This document shows, in pieces, positions 4,423 through 54,713 of a stretch of DNA of 61,968 nt. Where the stretch lies: the IMG/VR virus record IMGVR_UViG_3300015371_000034, positions 1 to 61,968 of that record. The stretch is one strand, 5' to 3'. The translations under genes were made by a program, and so were the position numbers. The stretch is from a virus. Positions within the stretch are counted from its first letter, which is position 1. The number at the start of each line of letters is the position of its first letter. Below the pieces are notes generated by a model. The model did no database searches, was not told the DNA's origin, and saw only the letters and a list, made by a program, of their open reading frames with translations.

Positions 4423-7400
4423 TGCTTGCGCACGCAACAGCCACTGATACACTAGGCGCGGTTTCGTCCGTCAACCAGACTCTGACCGCTGGCACCAAGA
4501 CCGGGATGCGGACGCTGCGCCGCTCGTTCTATGGCGCGCGCATGAATTGGTCGAGCGTGGTCGATGAGTCGATCTGGGGTCCGACCCTGAACGCGCCCGA
4601 CGACTTCGGCCAAATCATGACGGGGCCGATCACGGTAGGCAACACGCTTACTATGATGCGGGATTGTCGGATCATCGGCGTGCGGCTTTACAAGAGCCCG
4701 ACGGCTGTTGGCTCGATCCCTGTGGGCATGTGGGACGCGGTCGGCAACCTGCTCACGAGCAAGACGCTCTCCTGGGTTGTTGACGAAGGCGGCTACCGTG
4801 AGGTGCTCTGGGACGCGCCCGTGCCCGTGAAGGACGGCCAGGAGTACAACTGGGGCTATTTCTATCCAAACGCCGACACGAACTACGCTGGAGCGATCTG
4901 GGTCTGGAACGGCCAGGACTACACGAACTACCCGTTCTGGCAAAAGGGCTTCTTTGTTACTGGTGCCGGGGTCCGCTCGCATGCTGGCTGGCGGAAGCCG
5001 GGTGGCACCGGCCTGACGTTCTCCTCTCTGAGCGCCGACCGCGCGCCTTGTGATTACTACATCGACCCGATCGCTGAATGGACGGACGATACACCGGGTT
5101 ACGATGGCGGGACGAGCTACTTCGCACAGTGGGACAACTCGACCTGGTTCCAGACGCACTTCCCGATCACTGTCTTCTGGCCGGACCTCGGTGACTACCA
5201 CCTGTACCGGGACGTTGGCGTTAACATTATCACGACCGGCGACTCCGCTACCCAGAACAACATCGATCAGTTTAAGGCCGAGGAAGCCAGCGTCCCTGGC
5301 GGGCTCAAGTGGATTCCTAGCCTCTACAGCGACGACATGAGCGGGCCGATCGCTACCGGCGACGACCCAGTGCTCGCCAGCATCATCGTCGGCTACTTCG
5401 TCATGGACGAGGCCGAGCTTAATCAGAATCCTTGGTTCCCGCCTGAAACGACGCTCGCCTGGTATTCGCACGCCCGGCAGTATGACTCGACGCGCATCAA
5501 CTGGCAGAACCTCAGCAAGATGACTGCCGACAACCAAGGCTTCATCTTCGCACCTGCTGGCGTCGATATGGTGACGAAAGAGCTTAACATCCGGCGCTAC
5601 GGCACACAGACTGACATCGCCTCGCTCGATAAGTACAGTCTAGCGGGTCCTGAGTCGTATGCGCAGAATGTGCCCTATGGCGGAGCGAACCGCTATGGTC
5701 TCTGGACCTATCCGCTCTGCATCAAGCGGATTCGTGAAGTCACAGACGGCAGAAACCCGGTCTGGGCAATCATCGAGACGACGAGCGAGTTTCCGAATCA
5801 GCCGACGCCTAGCGCCATGGATCGGGCCGTCTGGTCGATGTTGATTGCCGGGGCTCGCGGCCTGGAGCTTTTCGATCACCGGTTCCGTGACAGCGATGTC
5901 GAGCAGGACTTTGGCGCGCTGCTGCGCGTGCCTGCCATGAAGACTCAGGTCACGTCGATGTGCGCGCTCATTCAGACGCTCAAGAATGCGCTGTTCGCGC
6001 CCGACGCCGGCCTGATTGAGTCTTACACGAGCAGCGGCAATCTGGCGTTCGCTCAGGGCGGTTACGCCATTGGGGCGAAAATCCCCATGCACTTCACTAC
6101 ACGAATCGCCGATGGCAAGACCTACATCTTCGCGCAGGTGATTCGTGACGGAGCGACGACCGCTGTGTTCCATGCGCCGTCGTTGGCGGGCGCTACGCTG
6201 ACAGTGATCGGCGAGAGCCGCACCGTCACGGTCGATGGCACAGGGCACTTCACCGACAACTTCGCCGCCAACTATCAGTACCATCTTTATTCAACTACCA
6301 CAGCGCCGACCTATGTAACGCCAGCTAACGTGGTGCCGCCGTTGCTGTATAGTGATGGCGTGCCGCAGCCTGGCGATACACTGACGTGCTCGTACGGAGG
6401 CTGGACGGGGTCCTGCCTAACGCCGACCGAGTATTACCTGCCGCAGTACGAGTATCAGTGGCAGAAGGATGGGACAAATATTGTCGGCGCGGTTTCCGGC
6501 TCGTACGTCGTGCAGGGTCCCGACCAGGGGCACGCGATTCGTTGTGTCATCAGAGCCACGAACCCTGCTGGAACGGCTACAGCTAACTCAAACGCTCTGA
6601 CGATTGTCGCGCCCGACGCGCCGCCAGTCAACACTGTCGCCCCCGTCATCACGACTGACGGCACGCCGCAGACTGGTGAGACAGTCAGCTGCTCGCTTGG
6701 CACCTGGTCGAGCGTCCTGACTTTGAGCTACGCCTATCAGTGGCAGAGCGACGGCGCCAACCTCGTTGGTGAGACAGGAGCTACGCACCTACTCACCTTG
6801 GCTGAGCAGGGGCATGTGGTGCGCTGCGTGGTGACGGCTACCAACACAGCAGGCTCGACCTCCGCTAACTCGAACACTATCACACCGGCCGCCCCAAACC
6901 CACCGACGAACAGTGTCGCTCCGGCCATCAGCGGTTCGACGGCCGTTGGTTCGCTCCTGACCTGCGCGGCCGGAACTTGGACCGGAGGCCCGACATTCAC
7001 ATTCAAGTGGCAGGCTAACAGCGGCTCAGGCTTCACCGATATCAGCGGCGCCACTAGCTCGACCTACTCAATCGTTACTGGCGATGAGGGCAAGTTGTTG
7101 CGCTGCGTCGTGACAGCCACGAATACTGCTGGGTCAGCATCAGCTAACTCGAACAGCTTGTCGGTGCCATCTGCTAGCTCAGCATACTTCGCCGCCGTGA
7201 TCGCTGACAGCCCGCTGGGTTACTGGCGGCTTGGCGAGTCGGCCACGCCTTGGCTCGACTCTAGTGGCAACGGCCACCACATGACGGAAATTGGCTCGGG
7301 ACACGCACCGACTTCAGCTGCGAGTCTTGTGCCGAGCACTTCAAATCCATCATCGCTATTCGATGGCTTTGGAGCGATTGGTGTCGCATCCGATAGCAAC

Positions 7401-49939: not shown

Positions 49940-50373
49940 CAGTGTTTCCTTTCGAGGTTGTAGAGTTGGAATGGTACGTCGTATGCCTCGGCCAGAGCTT
50001 TGGCGATTCTCCAGCGCGAGTACGGGATCAGGAGCTTGCGTGGATAGGCGTACTGCGCTCGCCAGCCGGTATCGGCCGGGATGATCCCGCCCCACAGATT
50101 CACCTGCCCGGCGATCGTCACACCGTCGGACGAGAACAGGCCGTTACCCTTCTCCTTTGTGTAGCCCATATCGAACAGGCGATTGAACGTAGCGGCTGCG
50201 TAGGTGCCGCAGGCGCAATGTGGATCCGGTATTTCATGATCCTTTTGGCAGAACGCTTCAAAACGCATGTGCGGCTGCCACAGCGTAGTGTGGACGACCG
50301 AGTACAGGCGGTTCTTTTTGACTTCCCAAACCCTGTACCCGATCGCCGGTTCGATTGCGTCAGGAACTCTCAT
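49939..50373 (-). CDS. Conserved Cys/His protein of actinobacterial type (144 aa)
   Basis: The pattern YRVWEVKKNRLYSVVHTTLW, then HEIPDPHCACGTYAA, then GVTIAGQVNLWGGIIPADTG is one I recognise from many actinobacterial genomes and phages, always without assigned function. The Cys/His cluster may bind zinc. It supports an actinobacterial host. Confidence 0.68.
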   Translation of the reverse strand: MRVPDAIEPAIGYRVWEVKKNRLYSVVHTTLWQPHMRFEAFCQKDHEIPDPHCACGTYAAATFNRLFDMGYTKEKGNGLFSSDGVTIAGQVNLWGGIIPADTGWRAQYAYPRKLLIPYSRWRIAKALAEAYDVPFQLYNLERKH

Positions 50374-51355
50374 CGAGCGTTGCGATCAGCTCGGGCGGCA
50401 GCTTCCACCACCACTCGTTTCCGCGCTTGATCGACTCCACCTCCGCTTCCGCCTTGGCTCCCTCCAAGGTCCGTTTTGTGATCTTGTAGTGCTTGGCGTC
50501 CTCGATGATCTCGGTTGCGCGCCGCTCGTGTTTCGGCGCTGCGCCAAGGTACTCGATCAGGAACTCGACGGCCGCCTCACGCTTCGTCGGCGGACGCCCC
50601 ATCTTGCCACCCTTGTTGGCCTTGGCAAGCATCAGCATCGGATCGTAGCCTTCCTCCACTTCTCCTGTGTAGGTGAGGAGCGGTTGCGGCCGTTCGATCT
50701 CAGGCACGTCGGCCTCGTCCATCTCGAACTCCAGCGGCAACGGGTCATCGCGCAACTGCGACTTGACGTTGCACATGAGGATGCGATCCTTGTCCTCGGG
50801 ATCGCGCCCCACGATGTAGATCATGCGACCGGCTGCTACCAGACCGGAGCCCGAGCCGCCGATCGCGTTTAGTGGATGGCTGTTCTTGGCGACGTTCTTG
50901 ATTACGTGATCGACGAACACGATCGCGCAACCCGTTTCCTGCGCCAGCTTCTTCGCTGGCCTCGTGGCCTTGCGGATGCTGTCGCTCGACCGCTTGACGC
51001 CTTCGCTGAGATGCTCGTTGACGGGGTCGCAGAGCAGCAGCTTGACGTTGTACTTATCGATCATGCGGCGCATGCGCCCGATATCCTCCGGGAACAACGG
51101 GTCAGCGTCGTAGATGATGCGCTTCTTGTTAGCGCCGACCGCTGTGAGCCGTGGCCCGAGCATCGTGCTGTCGATTTCCTCCGTTTGGGAGAGAATCACG
51201 GTGCCACGCTTGCTGACGTCGCAGGCGATCCGCACGCCCAGGAGGCTCTTGCCACCGCCCGGCCGTCCCGCGATCACATGCACGGTGCCCTCAAAGATGC
51301 GGTCCATCCACAAGGGCTTAATGTTCTTGTTTACGATCGTGCTGGCTCTAGCCAA
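50360..51355 (-). CDS. RepA/AAA_25-like RecA-fold helicase ATPase (331 aa)
   Basis: TTG 51355 follows the GGGGAGG element. Walker A is IAGRPGGGKSLLGVRIA (residues about 29-45), and VKLLLCDPVNEH and CAIVFVDHVIKN are the B and neighbouring strands. A C-terminal part with RREAAVEF-like helix and KITKRTLEGAKAEAEVESIK resembles a winged helix. This class unwinds DNA or loads at origins. A second RepA-type domain is encoded at 55951-57807. Confidence 0.75.
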   Translation of the reverse strand: MARASTIVNKNIKPLWMDRIFEGTVHVIAGRPGGGKSLLGVRIACDVSKRGTVILSQTEEIDSTMLGPRLTAVGANKKRIIYDADPLFPEDIGRMRRMIDKYNVKLLLCDPVNEHLSEGVKRSSDSIRKATRPAKKLAQETGCAIVFVDHVIKNVAKNSHPLNAIGGSGSGLVAAGRMIYIVGRDPEDKDRILMCNVKSQLRDDPLPLEFEMDEADVPEIERPQPLLTYTGEVEEGYDPMLMLAKANKGGKMGRPPTKREAAVEFLIEYLGAAPKHERRATEIIEDAKHYKITKRTLEGAKAEAEVESIKRGNEWWWKLPPELIATLDESS

Positions 51356-52017: not shown

Positions 52018-52241
52018 TAGCGCCTGCTCCTGTTCTTGTTCCATTCGTCAATTGCCCTGATAGCCTGCCCGGCGTCGTCATGCGTGCTCAGGCGCATGCG
52101 CCGGATTGTCCGGCCGTTGACCGAGATGTAAGCTGCCCACTCGTACTCACCGCTCGGCGCGATCTGGCCGATCCGTTCCTGCGTGACGTAGTCGAGAACG
52201 TTGAAAACGTCCCCGTGGCTGTGACTTACGGTAGTAGCCAT
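52017..52241 (-). CDS. Hypothetical protein (74 aa)
   Basis: The sequence SHSHGDVFNVLDYVTQERIG ... EWAAYISVNGRTIRRMRLST ... QAIRAIDEWNKNRSRR looks like a small alpha/beta domain seen as unnamed proteins in other actinophages. Start and stop overlap both neighbours. Confidence 0.6.
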   Translation of the reverse strand: MATTVSHSHGDVFNVLDYVTQERIGQIAPSGEYEWAAYISVNGRTIRRMRLSTHDDAGQAIRAIDEWNKNRSRR

Positions 52242-52402
52242 TAGCTCTCCTTGCTAATCAGCATGTCAGTAACCCAGGGCAGCGCGAGCACAGCGCGCTC
52301 GATCCGCTCCTGGAGGATAGCCGCGAGTGCCGTTTCACCCGCGTCCTGCGACAGACCGTCGTTCTTGATACCGACGGCGACGTGGAAGACGATATCTTCC
52401 AT
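52241..52402 (-). CDS. Small hypothetical protein (53 aa)
   Basis: ATG 52402 follows AAGGAGCAAC. The product, MEDIVFHVAVGIKNDGLSQD then ILQERIERAVLALPWV, is mostly helical. It is the first protein gene downstream of the large RNA, 27 bases after its tRNA-like end. It may therefore share that transcript. Confidence 0.6.
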   Translation of the reverse strand: MEDIVFHVAVGIKNDGLSQDAGETALAAILQERIERAVLALPWVTDMLISKES

Positions 52403-52429: not shown

Positions 52430-52510
52430 GCGCGGGACGGGGATCGAACCCGTCAGAAAGCCGGGCCGAGAGCAGAGATCAAAAAACCTCCCCGCTCTCA
52501 GCCCCCACGC
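52430..52510 (-). other. tRNA-like structure at the 3' end of the large RNA
   Basis: Minus strand: GCGTGGG (52504-52510) pairs with CCCGCGC (52430-52436) as a 7-bp acceptor-type stem with one G-U. Directly next to the 3' strand is a T-arm with 5-bp stem ACGGG/CCCGT and loop TTCGATC. The D and anticodon arms are replaced by one long hairpin, GGCTGAGAGC/GCTCTCGGCC (52464-52503). Thus it is not a normal tRNA but could be cut by RNase P or Z. Downstream sequence is TATATCA, with no encoded CCA at the end of the stem. Confidence 0.65.
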
Positions 52511-53099
52511 TTTCACTTCTTACTTCAATCCTTTTTGCCTTCATTGGGTCATAGCGGGCCTCATTGGCCAAGCAAGCGGCGGCTCCAATAAGCGCTGCGG
52601 CCGGGTTCAGGGTCACCGGGTAGGACTATCGCACAGTCCGCCGGATCGGCCTACTTCACGGGTTCAGCGCGGGCGCGTGCGCTCCGCTATTAACAGGCAT
52701 CCCGCGTGCCGTTCGTTCAGAAACGGCAGGGGCCTTGTTCGTCAAGGCCCGTTCGTGCGGGCGGCTTTCAGGCTACCATCGTTCCTTACTTCACTCGTCT
52801 AGTTGCTGCTAGCTTCAACTATCGTCGGAGCGCACTGTCCTTTAGCTCTCGCCTACACCTTTCACGCTCTTGCATCGCTCCAGGTTTCGGGTACTCGTTT
52901 CGGACATCCGACTTTAGCTTCCACTAGCACTCGGCTAGGGTCGGCTCATAAAGTCTGCGTCGCCTCAGCTGCGGTTCGGCTTTGCGGCTTCACCTGCCGC
53001 TCTGCGGGGGTCCGAACAGTCCCCCTAGTCCTCACCTTGCCACCGAATTGCGTCAGGGAGGTTCTTTCAGGATTCACTCGGGCGAGCCCGCGCGCTCCG
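52430..53099 (-). ncRNA. Candidate large structured non-coding RNA (~670 nt)
   Basis: This is the longest gene-free stretch within a block whose genes otherwise overlap. A good promoter (53106-53134) points into it. Minus-strand RNA can form many hairpins: GGGCCTTG/CAAGGCCC with a 5-nt loop near 52735-52755, TGCCGTT/AACGGCA near 52708-52730, GGACT/AGTCC, GCGGC/GCCGC and GGGGG/CCCCC. Open frames here look random. It ends in a tRNA-like fold. Size, phage setting and tRNA-like end recall the large phage RNAs GOLLD and ROOL, but I cannot match either family by eye. Ends are approximate. Confidence 0.7.
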
Positions 53100-53105
53100 C
53101 GACGA

Positions 53106-53134
53106 ATGCTAGCAGGTCCCGCGTCCGATTGCAA
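53106..53134 (-). promoter_or_regulatory. Promoter of the large RNA, TTGCAA-17-TAGCAT
   Basis: Minus strand: TTGCAA (53129-53134), 17 bp, TAGCAT (53106-53111), again preceded by TGC. Transcription would begin near 53099. Between it and the nuclease gene lies a GGGGAGG element (53189-53195) with a 7-codon frame; nothing else is evident in 53140-53277. Confidence 0.68.
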
Positions 53135-53277: not shown

Positions 53278-53748
53278 TCAATCAATATCAATAATCCAAT
53301 ACCATTTGTTCATTTTCTTTACTGAGGCAATCCCCAAATCAGCTTTTGCTCTTTCTAGTGTTCGTTTTCCAGCGATATTTTCTTTGAAAGCCCTTTCTAC
53401 TATCCCAGTAGCTCTGTATAGCTTTCCCGGCTCCATAACGTCAACAAGCCATTCGCAAGCTAGCTCATAGTATCCAATATTCGCGCCTCTTAGATCCTTT
53501 GTTCGTTTTTCATTGTATCTTATGATATTGTATATCGGTTTTTCACTCTTTATGGCAATTTTTTCAGCAGTGGCTAGCTCAGAAATTGAATCATACTGCG
53601 CAAGTTCTATGATACGAACTTTATTCCACCAATTCTTTTTTGTTTTGTGACTTGACAATCTAGCTATGACATTCAGTGTTTTCCCTATGTAAAGAAGTTC
53701 CTCGTCCTTATCATAAAGTCTATATAGAGTGAAATACATATTGTTCAT
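53278..53748 (-). CDS. GIY-YIG endonuclease (156 aa), AT-rich
   Basis: The N-terminus YFTLYRLYDKDEELLYIGKT carries the GIY-YIG core (LYR...YIG), followed by RLSSHKTKKNWWNKV with the usual Arg/His region. A helical C-terminal part is probably DNA-binding (ERAFKENIAGKRTLERAKAD). Codons are far more AT-rich than the neighbours, as for a mobile homing endonuclease recently gained. The ATG lies six bases after a TATACT box, so the mRNA is probably leaderless. Confidence 0.78.
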   Translation of the reverse strand: MNNMYFTLYRLYDKDEELLYIGKTLNVIARLSSHKTKKNWWNKVRIIELAQYDSISELATAEKIAIKSEKPIYNIIRYNEKRTKDLRGANIGYYELACEWLVDVMEPGKLYRATGIVERAFKENIAGKRTLERAKADLGIASVKKMNKWYWIIDID

Positions 53749-53814: not shown

Positions 53815-54333
53815 GTGCCTAACTCGACATCAGTTGCTGTCTTCTCCATAGACCCTGGAGGGACTACAGGCTGTGCAACAGCTCTCATCGACCTGCGCCA
53901 GATCACAGTAGCGAAGGCCATGAAGCGGGCACGTCTGAAAGGCAATATCAACACCTGGGTTGAGGAAGGCAGCCACACCCGACAAGCATGGTCGATCGCC
54001 CGCAAGATCGTGGATTTTAACTTCACTGTGCACATCGAGCGGTCGCTAGTTGAGAACGCGAACTTCTATGTGGTTTGCGAGGACTTCCAGATTCGCCTCA
54101 TGGGTGCCGACCTCTCACCAGTACGCGTCATGTCAGGCGTCGAGACTCTGATCTGCGACGTGTTTAAGGATCGTTGGGAGCAGGATGGCTTCTACACCCT
54201 GCAATCGGCTTCTGAGGCTAAGGGGTTCGTCAACAACGAGATGCTCGACAGATGGGGTCTATTGAAAGGACGTACGCCACACGAACGCGATGCTCTCAGA
54301 CATATTGCCAAACGAATCGACAAACTACTGTAA
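53815..54333 (+). CDS. RuvC-like Holliday junction resolvase (172 aa)
   Basis: The start NSTSVAVFSIDPGGTTGCAT, then YVVCEDFQIR and the C-terminal PHERDALRHIAKR supply the acidic residues of an RNase H-fold resolvase (D in SIDPG, E/D in CEDF, D in RDALRH). Phage resolvases cut branched DNA before packaging. GTG 53815 is six bases after a -10 box, so the mRNA is likely leaderless. Confidence 0.75.
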   Translation: MPNSTSVAVFSIDPGGTTGCATALIDLRQITVAKAMKRARLKGNINTWVEEGSHTRQAWSIARKIVDFNFTVHIERSLVENANFYVVCEDFQIRLMGADLSPVRVMSGVETLICDVFKDRWEQDGFYTLQSASEAKGFVNNEMLDRWGLLKGRTPHERDALRHIAKRIDKLL

Positions 54334-54347
54334 GGGGGTAAGGTAGG

Positions 54348-54713
54348 ATGGCAGCTTTTCTATCAGTGCTAGCAGTGATAGTGCCGAATCACGATTTCGA
54401 GATGGAAAGACAACTTAGGCTACGCGACCATGCGGTCGCGGTGGCAGAGGCTAGGTTTGACCCGAGGCGGGCTATTGTCAGGCCGTACCGCTGGAAGCTG
54501 CTCCGTATGGCACGCTGTGAATCGACGGGACGCTGGTTCATTTCGACGGGCAATGGCTACTATGGCGGATTGCAGTTCGACCTCAGGACTTGGTGGTCGG
54601 TAGGCGGGCGCGGCTACCCGCATCAGAACTCGATCCTCGAACAGATGTACAGAGCCGTGCTCTTGATACTGAGGCGTGGCTACGCACCTTGGCCGATTTG
54701 CGGCTATGTCTGA
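54348..54713 (+). CDS. Rpf-like transglycosylase-domain protein (121 aa)
   Basis: The core LRMARCESTGRWFISTGNGY then YGGLQFDLRTWWSVGG matches the resuscitation-promoting factor fold of actinobacteria, with the catalytic Glu in CES. It would cleave peptidoglycan glycan chains. A hydrophobic start (MAAFLSVLAVIVPNHD) is too short to be a clear signal peptide. It is encoded in the early-type block with DNA genes, not with the lysis genes, so its use at entry, lysis or host wall control is open. Confidence 0.72.
   Translation: MAAFLSVLAVIVPNHDFEMERQLRLRDHAVAVAEARFDPRRAIVRPYRWKLLRMARCESTGRWFISTGNGYYGGLQFDLRTWWSVGGRGYPHQNSILEQMYRAVLLILRRGYAPWPICGYV

Follow-up and report, generated by a model that had tools for sequence, protein, structure and literature searches.

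The window, as we call the whole stretch of DNA analyzed here, comprises 61,968 nucleotides of an uncultured virus (IMG/VR record IMGVR_UViG_3300015371_000034, positions 1 to 61,968), which is a myovirus-like phage, with matches to portal, major head, baseplate wedge and sheath-like proteins. At the start of a leftward operon, which diverges from a RuvC-like gene, its minus strand from about 53,100 to 52,428 very likely encodes a conserved, structured and as yet unclassified phage RNA, an inference made from sequence alone. The original prediction had noted about 670 nt without a credible gene at 52,430-53,099 and had named two hairpins within them; the gene-less stretch was confirmed, with coordinates right to within a few bases, and both hairpins exist (GGGCCTTG/CAAGGCCC at 52,750-52,730 and TGCCGTT/AACGGCA at 52,728-52,707). 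The features of the locus, in the order in which the minus strand is read, are the following.

53106..53134, minus strand: promoter-like sequence TTGCAA-17-TAGCAT with TGC before the -10 element; spacer conserved in relatives
52512..53100, minus strand: body of the large structured RNA; homologues in viral contigs L003 and L004, covariation, no Rfam match
53030..53061, minus strand: Helix A, CCTC.../...GAGG, with inner pairs that change between the compared sequences
52970..53025, minus strand: pseudoknot core, a GGGGG/CCCCC hairpin plus an enclosed hairpin, with compensatory pairs
52952..52961, minus strand: invariant stretch GACGCAGACT, identical in all three RNAs
52799..52938, minus strand: long arm (H1, internal loop, H2, H5), from individual folds and covariation
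52771..52785, minus strand: near-invariant stretch GGAACGATGGTAGCC, GG(A/G)ACGATGGTAGCC in all three RNAs
52707..52750, minus strand: the two hairpins named above, present in the window and similar in L004
52428..52511, minus strand: tRNA-like element without a D-arm, 84 nt, a local energy minimum supported by covariation and shuffles
52241..52402, minus strand: first gene after the RNA, an ORF of 53 aa with ATG at 52,402, function unknown

The RNA body would measure ~588 nt (~590 when rounded) if cut before the tRNA-like element, its 5' end being an estimate based on the position of the promoter.

Relatives were reached through the ATPase gene of the operon (50,360-51,355), which led to three viral contigs: L002 contains the 3.6-kb region as a 99.97% identical copy, and L003 and L004 are divergent phages, with ATPase identities of 87% and 84%, respectively. 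A homologous RNA is present in L003 and L004 at the equivalent site, and in all three phages it comes first in the operon, preceded by a promoter-like sequence whose spacer is 17 nt long. The overall identity among the three RNAs is 50-63% and their length ~500-670 nt, the L003 RNA being ~160 nt shorter. The gene neighbors vary: a GIY-YIG endonuclease gene upstream of the RNA in the window is absent from both relatives, and the first gene after the RNA in L004 differs from that of the window. No further homologue was detected in eight scans of viral contigs and two of genome contigs, by blastn in phages and plasmids, or when covariance model R1 was run against 396 genomes of one phylum and the majority of the pattern-hit loci. 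Three weak R1 matches (E ~0.007 per genome) were set aside as chance-level for 396 genomes and lacking the other motifs; R1 includes a small hairpin that was later rejected and omits the pseudoknot, and its sensitivity to distant relatives is limited. Since the collections open to scanning, which did not include metagenome contigs, yielded no fourth lineage, the RNA is rare or narrowly distributed.

With respect to transcription, the promoter-like sequence (53,134-53,106) has 8 of the 12 consensus bases by direct count, and lies below the threshold of a simple promoter scan, which did not list it. It is nevertheless supported by its recurrence with the 17-nt spacer in L003 (TTGCGT..TAAGCT, 4835-4863) and L004 (TTGCAA..TACCCT, 1554-1582), and the prediction of a near-consensus promoter is corrected accordingly; that of an early operon remains a reasonable inference from position only, namely the head of a leftward operon that diverges from the RuvC-like gene. 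The first gene after the RNA has an AAGGAG ribosome-binding site and starts 25 nt past the tRNA-like element, which is thus placed exactly between the RNA body and this site; the gene has a homologue in L003 and no Pfam match. Downstream of the RNA the analysis detected no terminator-like site, and therefore some cut or read-through is needed.

Folding energy alone would not support an RNA at this locus because it beats that of shuffled sequences only slightly on either strand (z-score of the minimum free energy, -1.64 for the minus and -2.09 for the plus strand). The case rests instead on comparison with the relatives, and this comparison of sequences shows both a conserved RNA with covarying structure and its position at the operon head. 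All of the 29 chosen pairs in H1, H2, H5 and the acceptor/T-arm helix are formed in all three phages (all 87 cells), and both sides are changed in 17 of the 29, divided between the long arm and the 3' element. None of 500 shuffles matched this level of pairing and double change, and sliding the partner by 1-3 columns reduced the pairing to 29-41%. Since the counted segments were picked after inspection and joined by short artificial linkers, and only three sequences were available, the size of the effect weighs more than the exact shuffle count.

Within the body, Helix A reads CCT/AGG in the window, CGG/CCG in L003 and CCGG/CCGG in L004, and is followed by a core (53,025-52,921) with a mean column identity of 87%. 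Here the loop GTTCGG (53,017-53,012) of the GGGGG/CCCCC hairpin pairs with CCGAAC (52,979-52,974) to form a pseudoknot that encloses a second hairpin, GCGGC/GCCGC (53,000-52,984); two compensatory pairs support the pseudoknot and two more the second hairpin, a count from which one bulged A of L003 was manually excluded. Separate folding of each RNA gives one common arm in all three for the 140 nt after the core. Its helix H1 is CTAG/CTAG in the window, and CTGC/GCAG and CAAG/CTTG in the other two RNAs; the internal loop CCGAG/GCAA is invariant; H2 is TGCTAGT/GCTAGCA in the window, and TGATCGG/CCGATTA and TGCTTGA/TCAAGCA in the other two; and the inner helix H5 joins TGTCC (52,906-52,902) to GGACA (52,840-52,836). 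In this arm both sides are changed in 11 of 16 pairs, all of which remain paired. A small hairpin at 52,938-52,921 was dropped, as the H1/H2 arm pairs better. The window and L004 resemble each other in the region 52,770-52,512, which is not resolved in L003.

The prediction that the RNA ends in a tRNA-like fold held, and better than first described. In the window, the element has a 7-bp acceptor stem (AGCGTGG/CCGCGCT), a single 16-bp arm and a canonical T-arm with a 6-bp stem and the loop TTCGATC (52,454-52,436), and ends in an A at the discriminator position (A73; 52,428). The L003 element (acceptor CGCGCAG/CTGCGCG, T-loop TTCAATT) and the L004 element (acceptor AGCGTGA/TCACGCT, T-loop TTCGATT) likewise end in this A, which is present in all three phages. 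A 13-bp acceptor/T stack is common to the three elements, six of its 13 pairs are changed on both sides, and the whole element is a local energy minimum in each phage. A T-arm combined with a local acceptor strand that fits it arose in only 1, 0 and 3 of 5,000 shuffles for the three phages, and no second such combination exists elsewhere in the window. The full-length fold of the window RNA prefers a competing pairing, GAAAGC/GCTTTC, over the acceptor stem; this pairing is not kept in L003, and the acceptor stem is. An alternative model, in which the acceptor is closed by the 5' end of the RNA (GCGCGGG at 53,093), was given up in favor of the local stem, which is free of mismatches, covaries and yields A73 in all three phages. 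The element lacks a D-arm and an encoded CCA, and a single arm with a 6-10-nt loop replaces the anticodon arm with its 7-nt loop; ARAGORN called no tRNA or tmRNA, and there is no tRNA gene in the window. The element is a D-armless tRNA mimic rather than a tRNA gene, for which a D-arm and an anticodon arm with a 7-nt loop would be required.

A protein-coding reading was rejected: no ORF in the RNA stretch has a Pfam match, the three-way protein-level similarity is scattered over many frames on both strands without any conserved frame, and one-base indels occur within the most conserved core. Thus, the finding that would have refuted the original prediction, a conserved protein frame in the relatives, was not made across the three homologues. 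As for known RNA families, no Rfam 15 model, including those of GOLLD, ROOL, OLE, HEARO and tmRNA, reached its cut-off at any position of the window. When the region itself was scanned permissively (E up to 5), only three chance-level matches to unrelated families came up and none to these five models, which were also without a match in L003 and L004 (E up to 1). The RNA is not filed under any of the five, as the model test failed for each. Hence, of the two parts of the prediction, a large structured non-coding RNA, possibly of a new class, is supported by covariation in three divergent phages, the covarying pairs that it proposed to seek having been found in L003 and L004, whereas a divergent GOLLD or ROOL member is not supported.

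The nearest parallels are found among mammalian and phage RNAs and in tmRNA. In mammals, the long RNAs MALAT1 and NEAT1 mature by RNase P and RNase Z cleavage at tRNA-like elements (PMC11693755; PMC12941219) that consist of an acceptor stem, a T-arm, a long anticodon-like stem and a reduced D-loop (PMC11693755). The phage locus resembles MALAT1/mascRNA and NEAT1/menRNA in that a long RNA is followed directly by a small element with an acceptor stem and a T-arm, a long anticodon-like stem and a D part that is reduced or missing (PMC11693755). The differences are that the mammalian RNAs are nuclear and unrelated in sequence, that cleavage is proven for them and only inferred for the phage RNA, and that mascRNA keeps a small D-loop whereas the phage element has no D-arm. 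With ROOL, a cage-forming phage RNA whose abundance equals that of 16S rRNA in one strain, and with GOLLD, the window RNA shares phage encoding, a length of several hundred nt, pseudoknots and a link to tRNA-type elements (PMC12286853), but it matches neither in sequence or model, lies at an operon head without a tRNA gene in the window, and carries its own D-armless mimic at its end. Assembly into homo-oligomers has been demonstrated for GOLLD, ROOL and OLE. By analogy, it is possible that the window RNA at most functions as a GOLLD/ROOL-type phage RNA with a MALAT1-type end.

On balance, we lean toward the explanation that a large RNA with its own promoter is released through a D-armless tRNA mimic and acts separately. 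Under this model, the RNA would be transcribed from the promoter with which the leftward operon begins and would fold into the pseudoknot core and the long arm with its conserved internal loops, and the mimic at its 3' end would recruit host RNase P and RNase Z. The predicted RNase P cut falls between 52,512 and 52,511, immediately 5' of the acceptor stem, and would create the 3' end of the ~588-nt RNA, while the predicted RNase Z cut falls directly 3' of the discriminator A (52,428) and would release the downstream mRNA together with its ribosome-binding site; the inferred products are the ~588-nt RNA, a ~84-nt tRNA-like RNA and a clean mRNA. The large RNA may then function independently, probably as a stable RNA with a structural role in the manner of GOLLD and ROOL, although both its stability and its role are inferred, and the latter is our favored guess by analogy with ROOL. 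Processing by these two enzymes is inferred from sequence alone, without cleavage data, and could as readily prove wrong as right. It is favored because the canonical T-arm, the 13-bp stack, A73 and the local fold together lie far above chance, because the RNA is kept at the operon head in three divergent phages, and because a comparable logic is known from MALAT1 and NEAT1 (PMC11693755, PMC12941219). Against it stand the lack of a D-arm and of an encoded CCA, the sample of three sequences and the absence of transcript data behind the inference. The missing D-arm calls for particular caution because in mascRNA two D-loop guanosines build the elbow that is read by the processing enzymes (PMC11693755); a GG is present in the linkers of the phage element, and any equivalent role for it is untested.

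Among the alternatives, it remains possible that the RNA stays on the mRNA as a long regulatory leader for antitermination or translation control, with the tRNA-like element as a sensor or stabilizer. Such a leader would be consistent with the position of the RNA directly before the first gene and codirectional with it, without an intervening terminator-like site, and at the operon head in all three phages. However, the different first gene in L004 shows that the RNA is not tied to one gene, ~590 nt is very long for a leader, and it is difficult to account for the canonical T-arm and A73 unless tRNA enzymes are involved. That the RNA belongs to GOLLD or ROOL in a highly diverged form, as the similar length, phage location, pseudoknots and tRNA-like neighbor might suggest (PMC12286853), is unlikely given the failure of both models at the cut-off and at the looser E-values noted above.

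A diverged tmRNA can be considered still less probable. The acceptor and T-arm domain without a D-stem, the long helix in place of the anticodon arm and a pseudoknot elsewhere in the same RNA are indeed tmRNA-like. In tmRNA, the tRNA-like domain is closed by both ends of the molecule, whereas the phage domain is contiguous and locally closed by covarying acceptor strands 63-84 nt apart; moreover, the alanine identity pair G3-U70 is missing, the third acceptor pair being C-G in all three phages, no conserved tag frame was seen on inspection, and neither ARAGORN nor Rfam made a call. Finally, an integration site that copies a host tRNA, or a self-splicing intron accompanied by its homing endonuclease, might be suggested by the resemblance of the T-arm sequence to a tRNA 3' end and by the GIY-YIG gene 144 bp upstream of the promoter, but both are virtually ruled out: covariation of the acceptor strands between phages is not required of an attachment core, no intron family was matched by Rfam in the region, L003 and L004 have the RNA without the GIY-YIG gene, and the RNA interrupts no gene.

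Few classes of large structured phage RNAs are known, and the functions of GOLLD and ROOL are still open. If release of the large RNA by way of the tRNA mimic were correct, it would add one more such class, with a testable maturation route, and the use of a D-armless mimic as a bacterial processing signal would bear on how little of a tRNA bacterial enzymes need. A bolder reading, on which we consider the evidence to be finely balanced, is that an undescribed class of phage RNA is freed by host tRNA enzymes, a counterpart in bacterial viruses of MALAT1/mascRNA maturation; this would constitute a phage parallel to NEAT1 and MALAT1, which have been stated to be the sole lncRNAs matured by tRNA enzymes (PMC12941219).

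Several observations concern the neighboring genes. The RuvC-like resolvase gene (53815-54333, plus strand), which is divergent from the RNA in the window and in L003, shares ~30% identity with RuvC-like counterparts in Corynebacterium, Gordonia and Mycobacterium phages; these distant actinophage relatives hint, without proof, at a possible actinobacterial host. Next to it, in the replication region near a primase/helicase gene, 54348-54713 (plus strand) encodes a small transglycosylase-like protein (PF06737). The GIY-YIG gene (53278-53742, minus strand) lies inside an inverted repeat, AAGGCCGC ... GCGGCCTT, with flanks at 53,782-53,770 and ~53,237. Upstream of the promoter in L003 (~4719-4756) and L004 (~1461-1497), the repeat is short and has no interruption; conceivably, the homing endonuclease gene was inserted into this repeat. 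Furthermore, the C-terminal residues 92-151 of the GIY-YIG protein show 42-44% identity to the C-terminus of the AAA ATPase encoded by the same phage (50360-51355, minus strand), a similarity that may reflect a shared or captured domain.
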